A stretch of DNA of 47,150 nt from Cyanobacteria bacterium QS_8_64_29 (lineage in GTDB: Bacteria; Cyanobacteriota; Cyanobacteriia; Cyanobacteriales; Rubidibacteraceae), in NCBI GenBank assembly GCA_003022125.1, contig PXQH01000023.1, forward strand, positions 1 to 47,150. Reading direction: 5' to 3'. The notes beneath the pieces were generated by a model, which was given only the letters and a program-made list of their open reading frames with translations, had not been told where the DNA came from and ran no database searches. Position 1 is the first letter of the stretch; every line of letters starts with the position of its first letter. Below are positions 38,779 to 42,139 of the stretch, piece after piece. The translations under genes and the position numbers were made by a program.

Positions 38779-39315
38779 TTACTCGCCGGAGGAGGCGCTT
38801 TGAGCGCGAACGACCGGTGGCAGCGGGCCGCCGCCGGCTTGGGTGGGCCGTTCGGCTTTGTAGCGGCCGTAAAAATCGATGCGGTAATCGGAGATTTCGA
38901 TGCCCGTTTGGGCCTCGATTTGGCGGATTAGCTCCGGCGGGAGTTCGACGTGGATGTCCACGATTTGATCGGTATCCAGGCAGTTGATGTGGCTGTGCGC
39001 CTCGCTGATGTTGCCGTAGAGGCGGCCGTCGCAGTGCTCGACGCACTCGATAATGCCGTGGCTGGAGAGCGCCTCGAGGTTTTGATAAACCGAGGTGTGG
39101 CCGATCTCTTTGCCCTGATAGTTGAGGCGATCGTAAATTTCGCGGGCCGATAGGTGCTTGTCTGCTTCCCAAAGCAGCTCCAGAATGGAGCGCCGCTGGC
39201 GGCTCAGGCGCATGCCGCGCTTCTGGCACTGCTGCAGGGCATCTTCTAGCGAGCGGATGGGCGCTTCGCGGCGCTCGCTCTCATTAGCCTGCTGCTGGCG
39301 GTTGCTTTGACTCAT
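38779..39315 (-). CDS. Fur-family repressor, PerR/FurC-like
   Basis: A DNA-binding metalloregulator of 178 residues. The winged helix is in MRLSRQRRSILELLWEADKH and GHTSVYQNLEALSSHGIIE. The metal-site region reads YGNISEAHSHINCLDTDQI. The two CxxC zinc motifs of typical Fur/Zur proteins are absent, as in Anabaena FurC (PerR), which it resembles most. PerR proteins sense peroxide and repress peroxidase genes; katG lies 3 kb away. The N- and C-terminal tails are low-complexity extensions. An AT-rich region upstream (39409-39435) could be its own operator. Confidence 0.82.
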   Translation of the reverse strand: MSQSNRQQQANESERREAPIRSLEDALQQCQKRGMRLSRQRRSILELLWEADKHLSAREIYDRLNYQGKEIGHTSVYQNLEALSSHGIIECVEHCDGRLYGNISEAHSHINCLDTDQIVDIHVELPPELIRQIEAQTGIEISDYRIDFYGRYKAERPTQAGGGPLPPVVRAQSASSGE

Positions 39316-39588
39316 GGGCCCTAATGCTTGCCTTGGGCAGAAATGGTGCGTTGCGCTCTGCCGCTAGCAACCGCAGTCCAAGCTGCCCCGATTGCAACCG
39401 GCTCGGCTTTTAACATTATTCATACTCATTACCAGTTTAGCTTGCATGCCTTGCAAGCAGCGACCGCCTATCGGCGTGCAGGTGCGGCGAAGGCTGCCAC
39501 TGCCCAGACTTAGCATATGCCAGGATCGATGAGCGCGTTGTCCCCTTGAGCTAGCGCTGGAGCTGCTGCCGGCAGCCAAGACGGTGCC
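39316..39588. promoter_or_regulatory. Divergent intergenic region with a possible Fur-type box
   Basis: This region separates the Fur-like gene from the replication-like gene. It has an AT-rich island, TAACATTATTCATACTCATT (about 39411-39430), in otherwise GC-rich DNA, which has the look of a Fur-family box. The match to the consensus is loose. No RNA gene or repeat was seen. Confidence 0.35.
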
Positions 39589-40767
39589 ATGCAGCTAGGA
39601 GCATTACTGCAAGCCTTAGGGCCTGCGGCCAGCTACTATCCCGCCTTGGCGCGCGCCACAGGGGGAGCGACCGCCGCCATTTTCTATACCATCCTGTTGC
39701 AGTGGCAGGCCCGCCAGGGTGGGGGTGGGGTGAGCTGCACGCCAGCCGAGCTCGAAGCCGCAACCGGTCTAAATGCCGACGAGCAGCAACTTGCGCGGGC
39801 GCTGCTCGAGGCCCGCTCGCTGCTGCAAGCGCGTTCGCAGCAAGGTCAGAGCTGCACGTTTTATCCCGAAACGGCGCCCCTAGCCGAGCGGTTGGATGCG
39901 CCGGCGGCGGATGGTGCTGCCGGTCCCCCTGAGCGAGCTCCCGCCGCACCTGCTGACCCGCACTTCCCGGTCCGCCGCCCGACGGCTGGCGTTCCCGTTA
40001 GCCCGGACTATCGCTTCCAGGGGCCGTGGCAGTCCGAGCAACAGTTGCAGGCATTCCAGCGCGCGCTGCTCGAGTATGCCAAGCAGCAGGGCATGCGCAA
40101 CCCCTCGGCTTGGGCCTTTAAGGTGATCGATGGGCTGACCAAAGGCATCCACTCGCCGTTTTGGGACGAGTTTGCGGCCGGGCGCCCGCTGGGCGAGTCG
40201 CAACAGGTCCAGCGCGAGTGGGAAGTGGCGCCGGGGGTGCCCTATCCCGCTTTTGAGGAGGAGCGCATTCAGTACTACCGCCACAAGGGCGAACCGCTGG
40301 AAGCTGCTGTTGCCAAGGCGCGCGCCGACCTGCGGGACCCGGTTTTGGGGCAAGATTTGTGGGATGGCTTTTTGCGCAAGTGCGATCGCCTGGCGGATGA
40401 GGCGATCACGGCCCGCGAAGCCGGCGTCTCGCACCCGGCCCTGCCCTCGTCCTTTACCGAGCGGCGCCAGGTCACCAAAGAAAGCGTCATGGAAAAGCTT
40501 GCCCGCGCAGGTTCTCCGGCAGCTAGCCTCACCGCCGAAACCAGCAGCGAAGGTGGCGGCGAGGACACCGCTCAGGCGTCCCAGCGCGGGACCGATGGCG
40601 GCAGCGATACCCCTGCCGATGAGGCCGAGGTTCCCAGCTTGGAGGCATTGCGCCGCGCCTACCGAACCCCCATGGGCCGCGAGTACGTCGAGCGGCAAAT
40701 TGCGGCCCATCCCGAGTGGGGGTATGCCATTGAAGGCGGCGAAGTGGTCGATCGCTACCCGTTTTGA
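39589..40767 (+). CDS. Replication-protein-like winged-helix protein
   Basis: A protein of 392 residues. Its start, LGPAASYYPALARATGGATA followed by IFYTILLQWQ, resembles the N-terminal winged helix of plasmid and phage replication or DnaD-like proteins (Y-P-x-L-A...G-x-x-x-A...L-x-x-W). The middle has a second helical domain (FQRALLEYAKQQGMRNPSAW). The end carries HPEWGYAIEGGEVVDRYPF. The small gene just downstream ends in a matching motif. A chromosomal role in replication or segregation is possible; the function is not known. Confidence 0.6.
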   Translation: MQLGALLQALGPAASYYPALARATGGATAAIFYTILLQWQARQGGGGVSCTPAELEAATGLNADEQQLARALLEARSLLQARSQQGQSCTFYPETAPLAERLDAPAADGAAGPPERAPAAPADPHFPVRRPTAGVPVSPDYRFQGPWQSEQQLQAFQRALLEYAKQQGMRNPSAWAFKVIDGLTKGIHSPFWDEFAAGRPLGESQQVQREWEVAPGVPYPAFEEERIQYYRHKGEPLEAAVAKARADLRDPVLGQDLWDGFLRKCDRLADEAITAREAGVSHPALPSSFTERRQVTKESVMEKLARAGSPAASLTAETSSEGGGEDTAQASQRGTDGGSDTPADEAEVPSLEALRRAYRTPMGREYVERQIAAHPEWGYAIEGGEVVDRYPF

Positions 40768-40770
40768 GCC

Positions 40771-41013
40771 ATGGAGCAGCTCGGTCAGTTCTCAGCTTGG
40801 GATCCCGGGCGCCGCGCCCCCTCAAAAGCAGAGCGGGCTGCCTGGCAGCGCGAGCGGCAGCGGCGCGAGGTCGAAGCCGGCTACCGCCAGCTTGCCGAGC
40901 TGTGCCGCTTGGGCGAGACGGCAGCTGCCCGGCGCCTAGCCCAGCGCAATCCGCACTGGGGCTACGCCATCGCCGATGGCGAGGTCATCGCGGCAAGCGA
41001 GGCGCCCTATTAA
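40771..41013 (+). CDS. Small protein sharing the WGYAI-GEV tail motif
   Basis: A protein of 80 residues with no recognised domain. It is highly charged and helical (RAAWQRERQRREVEAGYRQL). Its end NPHWGYAIADGEVIAASEAP matches the tail of the upstream protein (HPEWGYAIEGGEV), so the two share a C-terminal module. It is 3 bp after that gene. The stop is nested with the stop of the convergent ParA gene in TTAA (41010-41013). Confidence 0.55.
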   Translation: MEQLGQFSAWDPGRRAPSKAERAAWQRERQRREVEAGYRQLAELCRLGETAAARRLAQRNPHWGYAIADGEVIAASEAPY

Positions 41014-41597
41014 GCCAACACTTGCTCGCCCACGGCTTCGTACTTTTTCCAAGCCAGGCGGGCGCGTGCTCCAGTGTAGTCGCGAACGGCAACCCCGCGC
41101 TCGGCGGCCCGCTCGTAGGCCACCAGTAGCGGAATCTCGACCGAAAACAGCGGCACGTTGCGCGCCTCCAGCTGCGCGCGGGCTTCGCGCCCGCTTCGGG
41201 TGCGCGGATCGACTTTGGTCAGCAAGACCCGAAAAGCCACCCCTAGCGGTTCCAGTAGCTCCAGGGTTTTGAAGGTGGCATCCATATCCAGCGAGTTGGG
41301 CGTGGTGGGCAGGACCGTCAGGTCGCTGCCTTGGGCCAGATCTTTAAGGTCGTCGGGCTCGGGCCGCGGTTGCGTGTCAATGACGATGTGGTTGTACTTG
41401 CGGATGACAGCATGGGAGCCGGCCTCAGAGGCCACGCGAAACGGGAGCTTTTCCTCTTTAGCCCACACCAGCGCCGAGCGGTTGCGATCGGCATCGACCA
41501 GTAGCGTTGGGGCTTGCTGCTGCAGGTAAGTTGCCAGGTGAATGGCGGTAGTAGTTTTGCCGACGCCGCCTTTGAGTGCCGTAACGGTTACGAACAT
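41010..41597 (-). CDS. ParA/MinD-like ATPase
   Basis: A P-loop ATPase of 195 residues. The deviant Walker A is KGGVGKTTTA (residues 9-18), followed by LLVDADRN and the Walker B-like HIVIDTQPRP. It is short, as in plasmid-type or small chromosomal ParA proteins without an N-terminal helix-turn-helix. Partition proteins of this type position DNA or protein cargo. No parB is next to it; the convergent replication-like gene may be functionally linked. Confidence 0.85.
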   Translation of the reverse strand: MFVTVTALKGGVGKTTTAIHLATYLQQQAPTLLVDADRNRSALVWAKEEKLPFRVASEAGSHAVIRKYNHIVIDTQPRPEPDDLKDLAQGSDLTVLPTTPNSLDMDATFKTLELLEPLGVAFRVLLTKVDPRTRSGREARAQLEARNVPLFSVEIPLLVAYERAAERGVAVRDYTGARARLAWKKYEAVGEQVLA

Positions 41598-41656
41598 ACG
41601 GGAGCCTCGAGAATGTCAGGTAGGAACGAGTCGGCTGCAAATCGAGAGGCATTCTA

Positions 41657-42139
41657 ATGACGGCAACGGTTTCTCTCAATGCAACCCAGATCCGCAACCT
41701 CGATCTAGCCCCGATTCGCGAGGTTGTGGACGAGCCGCTTCGGCGCGGTGCCATTGCCGATCTCGAGCAGCAGCTCAGCTTTGACATTGACTTCCCGCGC
41801 GAGCAAACCGATCCGCGCGAGCTCTCCGAGGTCCCCGAAGTCCGGCTGTGGTTCGTCAGCCTCGATGCCCGCTATCCGTGGTTGCCGTTTGCGCTGGATT
41901 GGCGCTCGGGCGAGCTGGCGCGCTACGCCGCCATGCTAGTGCCGCATCAGTTCAGCCGCTCGGAGGGCATCCAGTACAACCCCGAGGCCCTGGAGATCTT
42001 TGTCATGCGCAAGATCTTCGTGCTGACCGACTGGCTGGGCGCGCAGGGCCTATCCAGCACCTCGCGCGTCAAGTCCATGGCGCAGATGTTAGGCTACGAG
42101 CTCGACGATACGTTTTTCGATCTGGCGGCGCAGTCCTAG
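41657..42139 (+). CDS. CRR6-family NdhI maturation factor
   Basis: A protein of 160 residues. It contains SEVPEVRLWFVSLDARYPWL, PFALDWRSGELARYAAMLVP and HQFSRSEGIQYNPEALEIFV, the conserved CRR6 (DUF1817) pattern. CRR6 is needed for assembly of the NdhI subunit of the photosynthetic NDH-1 complex, acting in the stroma or cytoplasm. The ATG at 41657 is taken. The gene is divergent from parA, with 59 bp between. Confidence 0.82.
   Translation: MTATVSLNATQIRNLDLAPIREVVDEPLRRGAIADLEQQLSFDIDFPREQTDPRELSEVPEVRLWFVSLDARYPWLPFALDWRSGELARYAAMLVPHQFSRSEGIQYNPEALEIFVMRKIFVLTDWLGAQGLSSTSRVKSMAQMLGYELDDTFFDLAAQS

Follow-up and report, generated by a model that had tools for sequence, protein, structure and literature searches.

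A conserved cyanobacterial gene pair with a shared WGY tail and a possible origin among plasmid- or phage-type replication proteins

The window, by which we mean the whole analysed stretch of 47,150 nucleotides from Cyanobacteria bacterium QS_8_64_29, carries two adjacent genes on its plus strand, called BIG and SMALL here. BIG (39589..40767, plus strand) encodes a 392-residue O-like or initiator-like protein with a C-terminal WGY tail and has orthologues in 28 of 100 related genomes. SMALL (40771..41013, plus strand), delineated from its open reading frame, synteny and a structure model, encodes an 80-residue partner that consists of an N-terminal helix and a WGY tail. The two genes are spaced by 3 nt and form an operon. 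They are followed by the gene for a solo ParA-family ATPase of 195 residues on the opposite strand (41010..41597, minus strand), and the convergent stop codons of SMALL and ParA overlap in TTAA at 41010-41013. The nested stops noted in the preliminary description of this DNA are thus confirmed, and so is the common tail of the 392- and 80-residue proteins, which reads WGYAIEGGEV in BIG and WGYAIADGEV in SMALL (common motif WGYAIxxGEV). On the basis of family matches and synteny, BIG is flanked by a gene for a Fur-family regulator (38779..39315, minus strand), which several lineages have next to BIG in divergent orientation, and crr6 (41657..42139, plus strand), coding for an NdhI maturation factor, lies beyond ParA.

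Lineages sharing the window arrangement (e.g. Cyanobacteria bacterium QS_4_48_99 and Spirulina species) have fur divergent from BIG-SMALL, with crr6 as the usual gene after SMALL and no ParA; in the window genome, ParA is placed between SMALL and crr6. Of 53 further cyanobacterial loci, 48 keep BIG and SMALL adjacent. The chromosomal site varies by lineage, only BIG and SMALL move as a pair, and the other neighbours of BIG are conserved only lineage by lineage. As a separate observation, loci of the Microcoleus group (L132, L140, L164 and similar ones) carry convergent rbcL and probable rbcX about 2-4 kb downstream of BIG, a proximity that is probably just positional.

BIG was present in all nine genomes searched from the window's family, its occurrence in the order is patchy (28/100 genomes with a strong match), and a sample of the phylum revealed it in 16 of 386 genomes, all from that same order. 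Nearly all hosts carry one uninterrupted copy, and the gene has been kept over many genera. Median dN/dS values for close pairs were 0.18 for BIG and 0.26 for SMALL, and both genes are under purifying selection. SMALL never occurs without BIG, being present in full in 22 of the 28 genomes with BIG versus none of the 72 others (p 5e-17). In six genomes with BIG, a complete SMALL is lacking. All six fall into a single group at genus level (g3), of which a named Halothece MAG is a member; four of them keep the N-terminal half of SMALL minus the tail, and two have no SMALL downstream. As either the tail is lost or the gene is missing there, SMALL is dispensable in this group.

We compared the tails of the two proteins by hhalign, using a BIG-tail profile built from 37 sequences and a SMALL profile built from 29. 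The match had a probability of 97.8%, an E value of 8.5e-13 and a score of 59.5, with column shuffles reaching at most 16.7 (n=100), the reversed tail 14.6, and those segments of BIG that stop short of the tail scoring below 20 against SMALL. Because the score lies so far above the shuffled and reversed controls, the likeness is, at the level of sequence profiles, true homology beyond chance. Together with the tail profile and structure models, this comparison delimits the WGY tail to residues 349-392 of BIG (40633..40764, plus strand), predicted as a helix-helix-beta hairpin unit, and to residues 37-74 of SMALL (40879..40992, plus strand). AlphaFold predicts an α-α-β-β arrangement for the tail of BIG, with a mean pLDDT of about 94 over residues 351-390, and the predicted model of SMALL closes with the same helix-hairpin arrangement (residues 19-74). 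When the tail profile was run over the 100 genomes, the confident matches were BIG and SMALL only, in 28 genomes, and two additional matches were weak (E 0.003 and E 0.005). Moreover, in the Spirulina lineage (L117 and L118), SMALL lies beside crr6 and carries two tandem copies of the tail, with BIG located elsewhere; these double-WGY proteins of the Spirulina subsalsa lineage are encoded at L117:5016-5369 and L118:3565-3903. Homology, restricted occurrence, predicted fold and tandem duplication, taken together, argue that the tail is a portable mini-domain rather than a chance motif. This mini-domain carries no name so far, and its binding target is open to a direct search. No relative of SMALL was found in a fold search with its model, in which every match had Z below 4.2. 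A match of the SMALL profile to 7rdr (E 7e-4) was judged to be due to chance, since we take 7rdr to be a designed helical repeat protein.

The remainder of BIG is built of two parts. Residues 1-103 (39589..39897, plus strand) are predicted to form a winged-helix DNA-binding domain, as indicated by the structure model, by structural matches that include initiator and Rep entries, and by the 'replication initiation O-like' profile phrog_9773, which matches about 90 N-terminal residues in 27 of the 28 members (best E 5e-17). The preliminary description called BIG a chromosomal replication-like protein, and this holds for the N-terminus of the 392-residue protein only. The winged-helix model aligns with the plasmid initiators 4pql, 4pt7, 4pta and 5kbj and with primosomal DnaB (5wtn) at Z of 8-9. 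However, many transcription regulators match it at similar Z (8-9), and thus the modelled fold by itself does not separate an initiator from a regulator. The second part is a conserved helical core, defined from relatives and the model as residues 150-277 (40036..40419, plus strand; about 120-310 in the wider delimitation), which is common to tail-less cousins on plasmids and other mobile elements. The core has no Pfam match, no Pfam or NCBIfam family spans BIG, DnaD and DnaB_2 of Pfam matched none of the 28 members, and the BIG sequence, core included, matched no solved structure. We found no iterons at 39200-41700, just short repeats in two copies. Neither 50,697 phage records nor viral contigs yielded a BIG relative, although viral HTH and replication proteins do match in structure, at weak E values.

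The core has distant relatives elsewhere in the cyanobacteria, and two cyanobacterial plasmids encode one each: BAZ47394.1 (Chondrocystis plasmid6) and WP_015195619.1 (Stanieria pSTA7437.02), both annotated as 'hypothetical', with 27-33% identity in the homologous core. The match of these plasmid cousins to BIG is confined to the core, and the N-termini of the cousins match 'DnaD-like helicase loader' (a phage DnaD-like profile) and 'replication initiation' profiles. The WGY tail was not seen in genome-borne cousins read full length, and SMALL was not found on any plasmid. As no other gene of the 11.5-kb Chondrocystis plasmid is annotated as a replication protein, the cousin may be the initiator of that plasmid, which is a suggestion and no proof. 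The same core is shared by a cyanobacterial family of 530-610-residue proteins with DnaD-like N-termini and no Pfam assignment (L113:6573-8168, L114:6904-8733, L115:5936-7660); these proteins occur also on plasmids and are candidate plasmid initiators.

What has been computed, then, is a winged-helix N-terminus, a conserved helical core that has cousins on plasmids, a tail confined to the two proteins, strict co-inheritance of SMALL with BIG, and purifying selection. The explanation we favour, to which we assign a probability of about one half, is that BIG-SMALL is a two-gene chromosomal module of cyanobacteria derived from plasmid- or phage-type replication proteins, to which the tail was added, with SMALL as a tail-only partner. 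The source of BIG would then be the class that comprises winged-helix, O-like, DnaD-like and RepA-type initiators and helicase loaders. The O-like match in 27 of 28 members, the profiles of the cousins, the initiator folds, the adjacency and co-inheritance of SMALL, dN/dS, the restriction of the tail and the tandem-tail SMALL all point to such a derivation; the ties in Z with regulators, the unmatched core, the lack of a phage relative and of iterons, and the loss of SMALL in one genus point away from it. In this explanation, the winged helix of BIG may bind DNA, its core may contact the replication or recombination machinery, and the WGY tail could serve as a protein-docking module. SMALL, resembling a tail mounted on a helical handle, could either pair with BIG or compete for the target of the tail, and such pairing or competition might tune BIG activity. 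In general terms, SMALL probably regulates BIG or shares its binding target.

The main rival idea is that BIG, with the same architecture, is a transcription regulator that binds promoters by its winged helix, SMALL acting as a co-regulator or anti-regulator through the common tail. On one hand, winged helices of the MarR, ArsR and CRP types fit the BIG model about equally well, and the divergent Fur regulator gene accompanies BIG in several lineages. On the other hand, the N-terminal sequence matches O-like replication families rather than regulators, and the cousins found on plasmids have matches among DnaD-like and replication families. We regard a regulatory function as possible, though on balance unlikely.

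The replication-derived reading also has a more specific form, which we consider doubtful: a domesticated plasmid- or phage-type protein might have a role in replicating the chromosome or setting its copy number, under the control of its tail-only partner via the previously undescribed WGY mini-domain, and in hosts that, like this one, lack dnaA, it could help to start chromosome replication. Published work shows replication in several free-living cyanobacteria that either lack dnaA or make no use of it, and which alternative replication factors operate in them is an open question (PMC7198777). In the window genome (G000; 2.2 Mb, 99.95% complete), dnaA was not detected by either TIGR00362 or PF00308. 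By TIGR00362 it is also lacking in two relatives, the near-complete G002, which carries BIG, and G008 (85% complete), and other members of the family retain it. The occurrence of BIG without dnaA in the window genome and in G002 might suggest that BIG is a chromosomal initiator replacing DnaA; this is very improbable, however, and BIG as a general DnaA substitute is rejected, as 25 of the 28 BIG genomes keep dnaA and BIG is missing from 15 of the 18 dnaA-less ones, which amounts to no association (p 0.38). Neither is there help from GC skew, which in G002 was flat over 80 sample points (permutation p 0.57) and places no origin near BIG; irregular skew has also been reported for other dnaA-less cyanobacteria (PMC7198777). 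For the question of alternative replication, BIG-SMALL provides a concrete gene pair that is conserved, under selection, of replication type and equipped with a dedicated small partner.

It might also be assumed that BIG-SMALL is what remains of an integrated plasmid or prophage and is decaying, as the family is of replication type and its chromosomal sites are lineage-specific, but a nearly always single-copy, uninterrupted gene with dN/dS of about 0.2 in many genera is hardly decaying, and this conservation refutes the idea.

In the preliminary description, the locus was likened to a domesticated plasmid maintenance locus, and the shared tail was suggested as a signal that ParA could recognise, as in cargo-positioning systems. 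The neighbour is indeed a ParA, as judged from its match to CbiA (6e-15), from 3cwq, a solved ParA and its closest solved structure (E 1.5e-49), and from the deviant Walker A motif KGGxGK[ST], present as KGGVGKTT. We searched other genomes for linkage of the tail motif to ParA and found the motif in places where no ParA gene is nearby, an outcome that the preliminary description itself had named as refuting its idea: ParA was near BIG at none of 53 named loci (flank up to 8 kb) and none of 27 whole-genome loci, the two sets overlapping. Close ParA orthologues (about 55-68% identity) occur in 24 of the 100 genomes, mostly in those devoid of the tail, 20 of them being without BIG. Co-occurrence in 4 of 28 BIG genomes versus 20 of 72 others (Fisher p 0.20, odds ratio 0.43) is not significant, and its direction is opposite to linkage. 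No partner or neighbour gene of solo ParA orthologues recurred across lineages. Because ParA is lacking elsewhere in both synteny and co-occurrence, it is a coincidental, unrelated gene that arrived between SMALL and crr6 in this genome. Domestication itself remains plausible, as BIG is initiator-like, has plasmid relatives and is a conserved chromosomal gene; maintenance with ParA does not. The idea that ParA reads the common tail, be it for plasmid maintenance or for cargo positioning, is thus largely refuted and retains a minimal probability, given that gene adjacency and the overlap of the convergent stops, both seen in a single genome, and a shared genome in the 4 cases stand against the absence of ParA near BIG at every other locus examined, the lack of association, and the fact that the plasmids with BIG cousins do carry ParA (in one case beside an annotated ParB gene) but have a cousin matching over the core alone.

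A small ParA beside a protein whose C-terminus bears a tryptophan motif is nonetheless reminiscent of McdAB/ParA cargo positioning. McdB requires its invariant C-terminal tryptophan to associate with the carboxysome, i.e. the cargo (PMC11321042), so that there, unlike in the recognition by ParA proposed for this locus, the tryptophan serves cargo binding; moreover, conserved linkage to or co-occurrence with ParA is not a feature of BIG-SMALL. BIG resembles phage O-like initiation proteins (phrog_9773, phrog_678) in its N-terminal winged helix, but differs from them in its core, its WGY tail, its chromosomal site and the lack of phage relatives in the collections searched. With RepA-type initiators (4pql, 4pt7, 4pta, 5kbj) and DnaD/DnaB primosome proteins, it shares a similar winged-helix N-terminal fold (Z 8-9), and its core has cousins on plasmids, whereas it has no sequence match to solved initiators and no iterons at the locus, and possesses an additional tail and a partner. 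The cyanobacterial plasmid cousins BAZ47394.1 and WP_015195619.1 have a homologous core, but they match over that part only, the related genome-borne cousins that were read showing no WGY tail and no plasmid yielding a SMALL.
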